From Lachnospiraceae bacterium (GTDB taxonomy: Bacteria > Bacillota > Clostridia > Lachnospirales > Lachnospiraceae): 64,000 bases of DNA. Positions 15,625 through 58,963 of this stretch are shown here, one piece after another. A model generated the notes under the pieces. It was not told the DNA's origin. It did not search any database and worked only from the letters and a program-made list of their open reading frames with translations. The stretch is taken from contig JAJQBC010000069.1 of NCBI GenBank assembly GCA_021203465.1, forward strand, positions 62,001 to 126,000. The letters run 5' to 3'. Every line of letters begins with the position of its first letter. The first letter of the stretch is position 1. Position numbers and translations under genes: made by a program.

Positions 15625-17760
15625 TTACATCGATTTTCTTTCCGCGATCTCCGCCATCTTCGCCGCGTTCAGGCGGGTGTCACCCTTCACGCGGGAATAA
15701 GAAAGGTAACCGTTCATCCGATCGATCTTCGTCAGGTTGCGGCTGCCGCACTTCGGGCAGACATCCATCTCGAGTTCCTGATGTCCGCAGTCGTCGCAAT
15801 AGGCGAGCGAGAGGTTCACGCCCTCGTAAAAGCCCTTCTTCATCGCGCGGCGCACGAGCGTGCGCACCGCCTCCTTATTGTAGCCAACCGGGTAGCGCAC
15901 ATACTGGATCTTGCCGCCGTTGCAGAGCTCCCAGAAACGTCCCTCGCTGTCCTGCTTCTCGATCGGCGTCATATCCTCAGTCACATGGCAGTGGAAGCTG
16001 TTGCTCACATAGGGTCGGTCGGAGACATTCTCCACAATCCCGTATTTCTTGCGGAACTGCTCGATCTGCAGGCCGCAGAGGCTCTCCGCCGGCGTGCCGT
16101 AAATCGCATAGAGAATACCATCCTCTTTCTTGTACTGCGCGATCTTCTCATTGATATATTTCATGACGTCCAGCGCAAACTGCCCGTCCTCGCGGATCGA
16201 TTTGCCATTGTAGAGCTCCTGCAGCTCGTTGAGCGCCGTGATGCCGAAGGATGCGGTCATCGGCGCAAGCAGCGGCTTGATCTTGTCGTGCGGGTCGAGA
16301 TGGCCGCCGTAGAAGCCGCCCTCGCAGTAGGCGAGCGGGTTCGTCGAGGCGCGCATCTCGCCGAGATAATCGCGGGTACGGATGTGCAGGTTCCGGATCA
16401 TCTCGAGGTAATAGTCGAGCACCTCGTAGAAATCGCGGTTCTCCGAGCGGGACTGCGCGAGAATCATCGGCAGATGCAGGCTCACCGCGCCGATATTGAA
16501 ACGCCCCACAAAGACCGGCACGTCATCCTCATCGGCCGGTTCCATGCCGCCGCGCTCGTACCAGGGGCTTAAGAACGCGCGGCAGCCCATCGGGCTGATG
16601 ACCTTGCCGTACTTCTGGTACATGCTGGAAATATAGCCCTCGCCGCTCATCGAGAGCCAGTCCGGATACATCGTCTTGCAGGAACACTCGACGCCGGCTT
16701 CAAAGACATCCTCACAGACGCCGCCCTTCCCGTGAATCGCCTCGTCATACAGGAAGACGATCTTCGGGAACAGCACCGGCTTCTTTGCGCCCTTTTTGCC
16801 CTGCCCCTCCTGATGTACCTGCAGCATGACGATATTGCACATCTTCTCAAATCTGCCCTGACCGAGGCCCATCGACATCGTGACGAAGGGATAGTCGCCG
16901 CGCGAGGAACCGACCGTATTCAGCTTGTACTCGATGCCCTGCCAGCCCTGCTCGAAATCGCGGTGGACGCGCTTCAGCGCGTAGTCCTCCGCCTTCGCCT
17001 CCGCGCCCTCCCAGGACGGGTCGGCATAGGACAGAAATTCCTTCTTGAACTTATCGTAACTCTTCTCGGCATAGGGTGCCAGAATCTTGTCCACCTCCGG
17101 CACCGTGAAGCCGCCGTACTGCTGGGAGGCCGTGCTCAGGATAATATCTCCCATCACATCGAAAGCCGTATCGAGCGTCTTCGGCTCATTGTACCAGACA
17201 TTGCCCATCTCGAAGCCGCCCTTCAGCACGTTCGCCACGTCGAAGAGGCAGCAGTTCATCGTGTCGAGGCGCGCCGACTGGTCATGGATATAAATATAGC
17301 CGTCGCGGCAGGCCTGCAGCTCGTTGCGGTTCATGAAGAACTTGCGGTAGAGCTCCTTGTTCAGCTCATTGAAAATGAGACTGCGCTTCGTCGCCACGAG
17401 CGCGCTGTCCGTGTTCGCGTTGCTCTTGTCGCCGATATAGCGGATCGACTGGCTCTTGGTGTAGACATCGTCCATCATGTGCACGAAATCCTTCTTATAA
17501 TTCCGGTAATCCCGATAGCTCTTCGCCACCGCCGGGTTCACCTGGTCGAGCGCGCCCTCGGCGATATTGTGCATCTCCTGAACATCGATATTCTCCTTGC
17601 CCAGCGCCTCCGCATGCTCGTAGGCGAAGCTGCGGATGAAGTCGATCTCCTCATCCGTGAACTTGTACAGAATGCGCGCCGCGGACTTGTTGACCGCATT
17701 GACAACCTTCTGCACGTTGAAGGCCTCGCGCGTGCCGTCCTTCTTGATCACATACATCAT
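15625..17760 (-). CDS. nrdD: anaerobic ribonucleoside-triphosphate reductase
   Basis: ATP-cone N-terminus; NrdD body; C-terminal CDDCG...CPKCG zinc site and RMNGYLSY glycyl-radical region. Confidence 0.95.
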   Translation of the reverse strand: MMYVIKKDGTREAFNVQKVVNAVNKSAARILYKFTDEEIDFIRSFAYEHAEALGKENIDVQEMHNIAEGALDQVNPAVAKSYRDYRNYKKDFVHMMDDVYTKSQSIRYIGDKSNANTDSALVATKRSLIFNELNKELYRKFFMNRNELQACRDGYIYIHDQSARLDTMNCCLFDVANVLKGGFEMGNVWYNEPKTLDTAFDVMGDIILSTASQQYGGFTVPEVDKILAPYAEKSYDKFKKEFLSYADPSWEGAEAKAEDYALKRVHRDFEQGWQGIEYKLNTVGSSRGDYPFVTMSMGLGQGRFEKMCNIVMLQVHQEGQGKKGAKKPVLFPKIVFLYDEAIHGKGGVCEDVFEAGVECSCKTMYPDWLSMSGEGYISSMYQKYGKVISPMGCRAFLSPWYERGGMEPADEDDVPVFVGRFNIGAVSLHLPMILAQSRSENRDFYEVLDYYLEMIRNLHIRTRDYLGEMRASTNPLAYCEGGFYGGHLDPHDKIKPLLAPMTASFGITALNELQELYNGKSIREDGQFALDVMKYINEKIAQYKKEDGILYAIYGTPAESLCGLQIEQFRKKYGIVENVSDRPYVSNSFHCHVTEDMTPIEKQDSEGRFWELCNGGKIQYVRYPVGYNKEAVRTLVRRAMKKGFYEGVNLSLAYCDDCGHQELEMDVCPKCGSRNLTKIDRMNGYLSYSRVKGDTRLNAAKMAEIAERKSM

Positions 17761-17770
17761 ATCTTCCACC

Positions 17771-17786
17771 CCACTATATCTTGTGT
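17771..17786. promoter_or_regulatory. NrdR-box-like palindrome upstream of nrdD
   Basis: CCACTATATCTTGTGT, close to NrdR consensus ACACWATATCTWGTGT. Confidence 0.5.
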
Positions 17787-17880
17787 CATTTTCCCGTTTT
17801 AAATGCCAGATGTTGATATCCAGTATATACTATGGAGTGTCAGATTGCAATAGGCAAAATGATAAAAATCTCGCCGCCCC

Positions 17881-18387
17881 TGCCCGGCCGCTGCCGCCGG
17901 GATGTCCGTCACCCTGCGAAGCGCACGCGCTGACAGCCCGCCCTGTGCGGGGTAAAACAGTCACCGCCTTCGGGATTTTCGTCATCTGCGGCTGCGAAAC
18001 TTCGAATTGAGCCTCCGGGTCAAATGTCTCTCGTCAGGCTGTCGAACGATAAGTCCTTTTGATGGACATTGAGGGCGATTTGTTACAGGAACTGCATACG
18101 GCTGGAAGCGACCAAAGACGGGTTCAAAACACTACAGAATTGTTTTGAACCCGTCATTCGTAAGGTCGCGAAGCCGTATGCTTAATTCCTGTTAAAATCG
18201 CCATCTGGGAATCGAAAGGACTTATCGTGCGGCAGTCTGTGCTGCGACTTGCCCCGGAGGCTCATCCGTTTCTCACTCGCAGATGATGAAAATCCAGCGA
18301 AGCCGTTTCCAATGTTTACCCCGCACAGGGCGGGCTGTCAGCGCGTGCGCTTCGCAGGGTCACACACCTTTCCGGCAGCGGCCGGGC
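17881..18387. repeat. giant imperfect palindrome / long foldback element (~250-bp arms, 9-nt loop)
   Basis: Perfect 46-bp inverted block 17911-17956 vs 18315-18360; further paired blocks 17973-17990/18278-18295 (one mismatch), 18008-18019/18253-18264, 18047-18059/18215-18227, 18074-18081/18195-18202, 18094-18103/18172-18181, 18118-18131/18141-18154; outer 17882-17896/18373-18387. Confidence 0.92.
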
Positions 18388-18412
18388 GGCATTTCCCATA
18401 CGTGATTTCGCG

Positions 18413-20947
18413 TCAGGCAATCTCCAGTACCTTGTAGCCGTCGTCCTCGACCGCTTTCTTCAAAGCAGCCTGATCCGGCGTGCCGCAGAGCGTGAGCACC
18501 GCGGTGCCCTTCTCGTGGCTCACCTCGGCGGACTCCACCTCCGCAAAGGCCTCGAGCGCCTTCTTCACTCTCGCCTCACAGTGACCGCACATCATTCCTT
18601 CGATCTTCATCGTCATCTTCTCCTCACCCCCTTTCACCTCCGGAAGGAACGGCTCGCTTCCGAGCGCGTCTTTCCGCTTTTTATCCCGCCCTGCATCGTC
18701 CATGCGGAACAGGTTCAGGCGCAGCGCGTTGCTCACGACGCAAAAGCTTGAGAGACTCATCGCCGCCGCGCCGAACATCGGGTTCAGAGTCCAGCCGAAG
18801 ATCGGAATCCAGACGCCCGCGGCGAGTGGGATGCCGATCACATTGTAGAAGAAGGCCCAGAACAGATTTTCATGAATGTTCCGCAGCGTTGCACGGCTCA
18901 GACGGATCGCCGCCGGGACATCGGAAAGCCGGCTCTTCATCAGCACCACGTCCGCCGCGTCAATCGCGATGTCCGTACCCGCGCCGATCGCGATACCGAT
19001 ATCCGCGCTCGTGAGTGCCGGCGCGTCGTTGATACCGTCGCCGACCATCGCAACCCGGCCCTTCTTCTTCAAGGCGCTGATCACAGCCGCCTTGCCGTCC
19101 GGCAGCACACCCGCGACCACCTCGTCGACACCCGCCTGCGCGCCGATCGCCCGCGCGGTGCGCTCGTTGTCGCCTGTCAGCATGACGACATGGATGCCCA
19201 TGTTCTGCAATTCCTTCACGGCGCGCGGGCTGTCCTCACGGATCACGTCCGCGACCGTGATAATGCCAAGCAGGCGCCCGTCCTCACTGAAGAAGAGCGG
19301 CGTTTTGCCCTCTTCGGCCAGCTCGGCGGCCTTCGCAGCGACCTGTTCAGGAATCTGCGTTTTTCCGGAGATAAATTTCCGGTTTCCACCGGCGAGCGCT
19401 CTGCCTTCCAGCGTCCCCGTGAGCCCGTTGCCGGCGACAGCCTGAAAATCATCGACTTCCTGCTGGGACATGTTCCGTTCCTTCGCCAGCGCGAGGATCG
19501 CGCGCGCCAGCGGATGCTCACTCTTCTGCTCCAGCGCGCAGGCCTTTTCGAGCAGCTCCTCTTCGCTGCAGCCGTCCGCGGGGCAGATATCCGTCACGCG
19601 CGGCTCGCCGCTCGTGATCGTCCCGGTCTTGTCGAGCGCGACAATCTGTACCTTGCCAGTCTCCTCGAGGGAGACGGCGGTCTTGAACATCGTGCCGTGC
19701 TTCGCCCCCATGCCGTTGCCGACCATGATCGCGACCGGCGTCGCGAGCCCGAGCGCACAGGGGCAGCTGATGACAAGCACCGAGATGCCGCGCGCCAGCG
19801 CATAGCCAACCGTCTGCCCGGCGAGCAGCCAGACCGCCGTCGTGATGAGTGCAATCGTGATAACCGAAGGCACGAAGACTCCGGACACCCGATCCGCAAC
19901 CTTCGCGATCGGCGCTTTGGTCGCTGCCGCGTCGCTCACCATCTGGATAATCTGCGATAGAGTCGTATCTTCTCCCACCCGCGTCGCCTCGCAGACGAGA
20001 TAGCCCGACTGATTCAGCGTCGCCGCCGAGACTGTATCGCCCAGCTCCTTGTCAACCGGAATGCTCTCGCCGGTCAGCGCGGACTCGTTGACCGCACTCG
20101 TGCCTTCCTTCACGACGCCGTCGACCGGAATATTCTCGCCGGGACGCACTACAAAGTGGTCGCCGATATGCACCTGCTCGATCGGCACCTCGATCTCGCT
20201 CTCCCCGCGCTTCAGGACGGCGGTCTTCGGCGCCAGCTTCATCAGACTCTTGAGCGCGTCCGTCGTCCTGCCCTTCGACATCGATTCCAGCATCTTGCCG
20301 ACCGTGATCAGCGTCAGGATCATCGCCGCCGACTCGAAATAAAACTCATGCATATAGCTCATGACCGCCGTCATATCGCCCTTCACCTGCGCGTCCGTCA
20401 TCGCGAAGAGCGCATAGACGCTGTATACATAGGAAGCGGTCGAACCGAGCGCGACGAGCGTATCCATATTCGGGGCACGGTGAATCAGCCCCTTAAAGCC
20501 GCTGATGAAGAACTTCTGATTAATCACCATGACCGCGGTCGTGAGCAGCAGCTCCACGAGCCCCATAGCGACATGATTTCCATCGAAAAACGCGGGCAGC
20601 GGCCAGCCCCACATCATGTGTCCCATTGACACATACATCAGCGGAATCAGCAGGCAGAGCGAAGCGATCAGCCTGCGCTTCATCTTCGGCGTCTCCGTGT
20701 CTTTCAGCATATCGTCATAATCCGGCGCGCTGCCGCCCGTCTTCTTTGCACCCTTCAGCGACGCCCCGTAGCCCGCGTCCACGACCGCCGCGATGATCGC
20801 TTCCGGCGCGGCGCTTCCCTCCACTCCCATGGAATTTGTCAGAAGGCTCACCGAGCATGAAGTGACGCCCGGCACCGCGTTCACGGCCTTCTCGACCCGC
20901 GCACTGCAGGCCGCGCAGCTCATGCCGGTCACATTATATTGTTCCAT
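18413..20947 (-). CDS. copA: copper-translocating P1B-type ATPase with N-terminal and extra C-terminal HMA domains
   Basis: [12 protein letters not shown] (N-HMA), CPC motif [19 protein letters not shown]-terminal [16 protein letters not shown] (CopZ-like). Confidence 0.95.
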
Positions 20948-20986
20948 AATTAAATCCCTCCTACCGCCAGGCAAAAACCGGCGTCA

Positions 20987-58567: not shown

Positions 58568-58963
58568 ACACAGCAAGCAGGACGATAAGCCGGGTTCTGT
58601 CGTGGACAATCATCTATCCAGGCGCGCCGTCACCGGCGCGCTCAAGCGACCTACCTGAAGCTGACGGGCCGCCATATACTTCTACTTGGTCTTGCTTCGG
58701 ATGGGGTTTACATGTGCCCCGCCTGTTACCAGGCGGGCGGTAGTCTCTTACACTGCCTTTCCACCCTTACGCTAGTCTGCCATGCGGTAGCTCGAATTGC
58801 TGCGCAATTCTCACCCCACGGCATTCGCTGGCGCGGTATATTTCTGTTGCACTGGCCTTGGAGTCACCTCCACCGGACGTTATCCGGCATCCTGCCCTGT
58901 GAAGCCCGGACTTTCCTCACCTCGCTTGCGCGAGCCGCGATTGCCTGTCCTACTTGCTGCAAC
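58568..58963 (-). ncRNA. rnpB: RNase P RNA (bacterial type A)
   Basis: Minus strand GAGGAAAGTCCGGGCTTCACAGGGCAGG...GGGTGGAAAGGCAGTGTAAGAGACTACCGC...GACAGAACCCGGCTTAT conserved core. Confidence 0.95.

Follow-up and report, generated by a model that had tools for sequence, protein, structure and literature searches.

Among the described bacterial elements closest in kind to the palindrome treated here, REP sequences are tied to Y1 transposases, and large structured RNAs such as OLE, GOLLD, and ROOL have multibranched folds, conserved loops, and stable loci. One account of REPs gives their length as 20 to 40 bp (PMC3733652). YPAL/RU-2 of Yersinia is a noncoding palindromic repeat that is not A+T-rich and whose inverted repeats are internal rather than terminal; it is flanked by direct repeats of 3 to 26 bp, its targets span or adjoin dyad symmetry, and its mobility was deduced from empty and filled sites (PMC2229807). 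MITEs are typically shorter than 500 bp, have terminal inverted repeats of 4 to 30 bp, and often have a parental IS (PMC10969869). In addition, template switching is documented both to create and to repair hairpin stems (PMC8794818).

The palindrome that we analyzed lies between copA and nrdD in a 64,000-nucleotide stretch of DNA from a Lachnospiraceae bacterium (here called the window). A first-pass annotation of this DNA offered two readings of it, a nonautonomous, MITE-like foldback element or a large structured noncoding RNA (ncRNA), and remarked that it might affect read-through from copA into nrdD. We find that, within the databases and literature covered, the element represents a previously undescribed family of giant palindromic mobile repeats, adding an unusually large member to a class mostly known at <200-500 bp. 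It also provides a natural case in which strong covariation, commonly taken to prove that an RNA is functional, may originate in DNA.

The palindrome and its site in the window

The window copy is a near-complete, imperfect palindrome with arms around the loop CTACAGAAT (Table 1). The arms, loop, and coordinates of the first-pass annotation were borne out by the sequence and by an inverted-repeat search, which recovered a 49-nt block pair (17908-17956 and 18315-18363, 98% complementary) containing the 46-bp block that had been called perfect, a 15-nt pair at the outer ends (17882-17896 and 18373-18387, 100% complementary), and four inner inverted blocks collinear around the loop at 18132-18140. 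RNA folding of positions 17861 to 18407 gave an MFE of -355.3 kcal/mol, compared with -190.6 +/- 6.6 kcal/mol for shuffled sequences (z = -25), and 0 of 100 shuffles reached this value; the outermost MFE pair, at about 17876/18390, lies a little outside the limits first assigned. The palindrome is real and well beyond chance. No plausible open reading frame crosses it, as had been proposed, and the overlapping frames of more than 60 amino acids start or end outside it and look spurious. An Rfam search of the element found no family with a covariance-model match at gathering score. The neighbors named earlier, copA and nrdD, agree with the matches listed in Table 1.

TABLE 1 Positions in the window of the palindrome, its parts, and the neighboring features
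Feature	Position	Strand	Basis
Whole foldback element, window copy including outermost arms	17876..18390		Outermost MFE pair; inverted repeats
Left outer arm, copy-specific sequence, pairing with right outer arm retained	17876..17958	+	Copy comparison
Conserved core	17959..18313	+ (orientation used in family alignment)	87-94% identity, nearly all pairs, 12 full-length copies
Apical loop CTACAGAAT; elsewhere CTTCTTTTGTAT and similar	18132..18140	+	Sequence, copy alignment
Right outer arm, pairs with left outer arm	18314..18390	+	Copy comparison
Left part of copA intrinsic terminator hairpin, GCCGCCCCTGCC	17873..17884		Comparison with congener G014 (locus L049), where the hairpin GCCGCCCCTGCCGGGCGGC is unbroken
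T-tract after left terminator part	17861-17870	-	Comparison with G014
Right part of same copA terminator hairpin, GGGCGGC	18384..18390		Comparison with G014
copA-type copper P-type ATPase gene, 3' end towards element	18413..20974	-	TIGR01511
nrdD, anaerobic ribonucleoside-triphosphate reductase, 5' end towards element	15625..17769	-	TIGR02487

Comparison with congeners shows what the element interrupts at this site. Both flanking genes are on the minus strand, and the copA stop codon is about 23 nt from the hairpin. In congener G014, the gap between copA and nrdD holds only AAAAATAACGCCGCCCCTGCCGGGCGGCGC, with the intact hairpin GCCGCCCCTGCCGGGCGGC and a T-tract, which on the minus strand has the form of an intrinsic terminator of copA; an equivalent hairpin is present in G001. 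In the window, the terminator halves GCCGCCCCTGCC and GGGCGGC flank the element, and the window copy splits the intrinsic terminator of copA. The earlier remark on copA read-through was apt in that the element sits inside the terminator hairpin that congeners show at the 3' end of copA. The short terminator of G014 might in principle itself be a deletion remnant, since such leftovers do occur in relatives, and events at the window site may have run in either order.

The surroundings of the site differ among congeners. G012 has a copy at the equivalent position on the nrdD side with a csoR-like repressor gene (read from sequence) beyond it, and G011 retains a remnant of the right arm at the nrdD locus. 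More generally, the gene past the nrdD promoter (window 17770-18413, loci L048-L052) is copA in some congeners and csoR-like in others, while the nrdD side is conserved; this alternation probably reflects a rearrangement that broke the chromosome at the terminator or element. Upstream of nrdD, the sequence TATCCAGTATATACTATGG at 17818-17836, which congeners have conserved, is similar to an NrdR box. Elsewhere in the window, a bacterial RNase P RNA of class A lies at 58570-58956 on the minus strand (296 bits).

Dispersed copies, empty sites, and targets

Of 17 species sampled from a single Lachnospiraceae genus, 6 carry the element, with 12 long copies and additional fragments among them; a DNA search of 98 genomes (the window's own and relatives) likewise gave six carriers, all of that genus. 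A covariance model built on the central 184 nt of the element matched the same 6 of 17 congeners; it found no element in the other 11 and had no match outside the genus among 397 genomes of the family, in which 333 other genera were sampled. No match to the element was present in phage, plasmid, and IMG/VR collections, and the carriers named by a pattern scan of GTDB species genomes were Lachnospiraceae metagenome-assembled genomes (MAGs). Carrier status coincides exactly with similarity at nrdD: in this region the carriers match the window at about 90% identity, and the remaining congeners at 74 to 78% or not at all. The window's own genome holds three full and four partial copies by DNA search, the window copy included. 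Copy numbers are lower bounds, as several contigs start or stop within the element or close to it (L007 on G000:C16, L019 on G008:C268, and L022 on G012:C126). The element is about 480 to 570 bp long, with one short form of about 300 bp. Its copies lie at unrelated genes, some downstream of genes and some between divergent genes, and in both orientations relative to their neighbors.

This distribution bears on two accounts that would confine the palindrome to the window or to its assembly. One is that it arose by local inverted duplication and serves as an enlarged copA terminator, which would suit its location within that terminator and the T-tract that still follows it; as an origin, this is very improbable and is refuted by the dispersed copies, which are closely similar, occur at unrelated genes in six genomes, and occupy divergent-gene gaps as well as positions downstream of genes. 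The palindrome may still affect termination. With the T-tract in place after the long hairpin, termination may persist at copA, in which case the insertion would be harmless. The other account is that the palindrome is an artifact of MAG assembly. Every carrier that the pattern scan named is a MAG, the element forms the end of several contigs, and two loci are joined in copy L014; however, MAGs assembled independently in different projects share this architecture, and the flanks, intact to the left and right of the element, are syntenic with empty sites. An artifact is extremely improbable.

Flank searches identified sites that are filled in one genome and empty in another. At hrcA, G008 is filled and five congeners are empty, with ACT/ACT flanks; at a spoVD-like penicillin-binding-protein gene, G012 is filled and two congeners are empty, with GAAT/GAAT flanks; at clpB, G011 and, with assembly gaps, G008 are filled and two congeners are empty, with AACTT/AATTT flanks. 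At ugd, G001 is filled and G014 is empty, and the flanks CGACTCAATTTTTTCG/CGGCTCATTTTTTTCG form a 16-nt direct repeat with two mismatches. The direct repeats measure 3, 4, about 5, about 16, and 18 nt, and several sites have a repeat that is brief or inexact. Remnant outer-arm hairpins persist in relatives at the polC-purA, tpm-like, and nrdD loci, and loss by internal deletion seems to be common. Dispersed copies, empty sites, and flanking direct repeats together argue that the element is a nonautonomous palindromic mobile repeat, and the foldback reading of the first-pass annotation gains support from each of these three observations.

The targets are of interest in their own right. In the window's own genome, L005 (G000:C96:7771-7956) is a diverged short copy, itself strongly folding (z = -16.6), that lies between two copies of ATGTTTCACGTGAAACAT, an 18-nt palindrome. 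We take ATGTTTCACGTGAAACAT to be a parS palindrome. The parS-like palindromes that flank L005 read TGTTTCACGTGAAACA. The same site has one parS in G001 and two in G014, the latter through a 38-nt tandem duplication, so that the second parS copy at L005 may predate the insertion. In a dyad test of targets, parS and the copA terminator were strong (0.2% and 0.8% of background windows were as good), while the hrcA, clpB, spoVD-like, and ugd targets, four of the six sites tested, were within background for palindromicity. By eye, the targets seemed to favor TTTTCGAAAA-like dyads in general, a reading that was not retained for that reason.

Copies were also compared by phylogeny. The tree of the core is star-like, with orthologous copies ungrouped and low support except for two G011 copies, and we make no claim from it about the history of spread. 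The exceptions, L013 and L016, group at 98% support and have a mirrored block change in common (GTCC-GTAGAT / ATC-TACGGAC); this suggests that one derives from the other or that conversion occurred between copies.

An ordinary MITE, that is, a deletion derivative of an IS that has the usual terminal inverted repeats, relies on the transposase of that IS, and forms a hairpin only incidentally, would account for the size, the lack of an open reading frame, the intergenic positions, the direct repeats, and the empty sites. We consider this explanation unlikely, as the ends are unlike between copies, complementarity spans the whole element rather than 4 to 30 bp at its ends, and the direct repeats range from 3 to about 18 nt. 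No conserved terminal inverted repeats were found among the copies, and a search by end consensus found no IS with matching ends: close matches to CTTCACAGCCTCCSGGG (0 to 1 mismatch) occurred only at copy L018. The same motif gave many weak single matches and led to no autonomous element in the genomes covered; a partner of this kind may exist in genomes beyond the sample. PF01797, the Y1 transposase of IS200/IS605 type, is found in one of the six carriers, and a Y1 transposase was rejected as the mobilizer on account of its absence from the other five.

Covariation of the arms and its cause

The copies differ most in their outer arms, where identity between copies is only about 43 to 68% and yet complementarity within each copy is kept; identity in the core is mostly 87 to 94%. 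Pairing across 11 copies (a set that omits the chimeric copy L014) is present in 96.8% of 2,000 cells. Double changes occur at 54 of 183 pairs, compared with 25.7 +/- 3.5 in shuffles, of which 0 of 500 were as high, and with 15 to 20 in slid structures. Pairwise comparison of the outer arms gave 751 compensated double changes, 402 single changes, and 130 uncompensated ones.

L014 (G008:C224:4968-5368) joins the flank of the ugd locus to a right flank that it has in common with fragment L007, and its outer arms form only 23 of 51 Watson-Crick pairs. Its junction would be due either to recombination between two copies, with chromosome rearrangement, or to misassembly of the MAG, and this poorly paired copy may serve as a natural control. 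A reading of L012 and L014 as one locus with an inverted element was withdrawn, as L014 joins two loci.

Such covariation is what would be expected if the copies were dispersed genes for a rod-shaped structured RNA of about 500 nt, encoded on the plus strand of the window and kept in shape by selection on the fold. The first-pass annotation had taken loss of pairing among homologues as grounds to refute an RNA role; pairing is kept, which by that test favors RNA. Very strong position-specific covariation in 11 to 12 copies, the highly conserved core, the greater stability of the plus-strand fold than of its complement in all copies, and an excess of G-U over A-C in conserved columns (four versus two) are all on the side of this explanation. 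Several observations speak against it, and we regard it as quite unlikely. Among variable pairs, G-U and A-C number 45 and 34, a difference that is not significant in a count that leaves out L014 and favors neither strand (an earlier count of 52 G-U versus 64 A-C was distorted by L014 and was dropped). Core loop columns are 85% conserved and paired columns 97%, the opposite of what is expected for loops that bind a protein or ligand. We saw no promoter-like site inside the element, which occurs in either orientation relative to neighboring genes; orthologous copies are no more alike than other copies, no Rfam family matches, and the clean insertions show movement. An RNA role still has some likelihood, given the modest strand bias in the numbers of G-U.

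Further features of the arms concern how the changes are made. Four copies (L003, L011, L012, and L015) carry mirrored indels in both arms, and L013 and L016 share a mirrored block of 4 to 5 nt. Judged from the sequences, arm covariation favors DNA-level copying from arm to arm over selection on an RNA, because G-U and A-C pairs are about equally frequent, indels and blocks are mirrored, loops are less conserved than stems, and the element occurs in both orientations without a promoter. We infer this copying step, and much the same pattern would be expected if a DNA hairpin were under selection because transposition required it. Of the proposal of a large structured ncRNA, what stands is that pairing is kept through massive compensatory change, and what does not is that this singles out RNA, since copying from one DNA arm to the other accounts for the pattern no less well.

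A model of spread and maintenance, and comparison with known systems

The explanation that best covers the whole, and one that we think probable, is a mobile palindromic repeat that is mobilized in trans and whose arms are kept matched by arm-to-arm copying. We propose that the element would be inserted by an activity supplied in trans, a transposase or something else, and sometimes at palindromic targets such as the terminator and parS; where such a target becomes duplicated, the two complementary copies would lengthen the hairpin outward. One arm would then template the other, by template switching in replication or by gene conversion between arms, and any substitution or indel that arose on one side would thereby be copied into the opposite arm. 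The arms would stay complementary because each can be the template for the other. Either selection or conversion between copies may preserve the core sequence and its mismatches, and copies would be lost by internal deletion that leaves short outer-stem hairpins. The natural case of covariation that the family offers is a clean one, with a conserved core, fast and coupled change of the arms, mirrored indels, empty sites, and a mismatched cross-locus control.

We also entertained the idea that the element moves as a hairpin, a rod of single-stranded DNA or RNA recognized by its shape and conserved core instead of by terminal repeats, with fold-back synthesis remaking the second arm from the first. 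We hold this to be decidedly unlikely; if true, each copy would have private, well-matched outer arms, and the replication cycle itself would enforce the palindrome. Covariation-scoring pipelines would probably label the element an ncRNA.

Compared with the systems described above, the element resembles OLE, GOLLD, and ROOL in size and strong covariation and differs from them in being a single unbranched rod, mobile, and without an Rfam match. Like the REP/BIME-RAYT systems, it is palindromic, extragenic, and found after genes; unlike them, it is far from 20 to 40 bp in length, and five of six carriers have no PF01797 match. With template-switch (quasipalindrome) hairpins it shares multibase compensatory changes and probable repair of a stem from the opposite arm; those cases are mainly short rRNA and microRNA stems (PMC8794818), and the process would act here over arms of about 250 bp. 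Prokaryotic MITEs (Correia/NEMIS, ERIC, RUP, Chunjie, and QMITE) are likewise small, nonautonomous, and intergenic, with direct repeats and foldable transcripts (PMC10969869). Our element is noncoding, nonautonomous, and dispersed, with insertion at empty sites and target duplication; unlike MITEs, it is palindromic throughout, its ends are unconserved, and no parent IS was found by the end-consensus search. At about 480 to 570 bp, with the short form near 300 bp, it straddles the 500 bp below which MITEs typically fall.

The closest parallel is YPAL/RU-2, which is also palindromic, noncoding, and not A+T-rich, has internal inverted repeats, and is known from filled and empty sites; in both, the direct repeats vary in length (3 to 18 nt here). 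Dyad targets, characteristic of YPAL/RU-2, exceed background here at two of six sites only. To our knowledge, fast-changing, still-pairing arms around a conserved core have not been described for YPAL. YPAL/RU-2 is enterobacterial and about 168 bp long, unlike the 480- to 570-bp element of Lachnospiraceae, and the likeness is one of behavior, with no known link in sequence. In behavior, then, this family seems closest to YPAL/RU-2 at about three times the length, an element that would work like YPAL or a MITE rather than being a member of the YPAL family.
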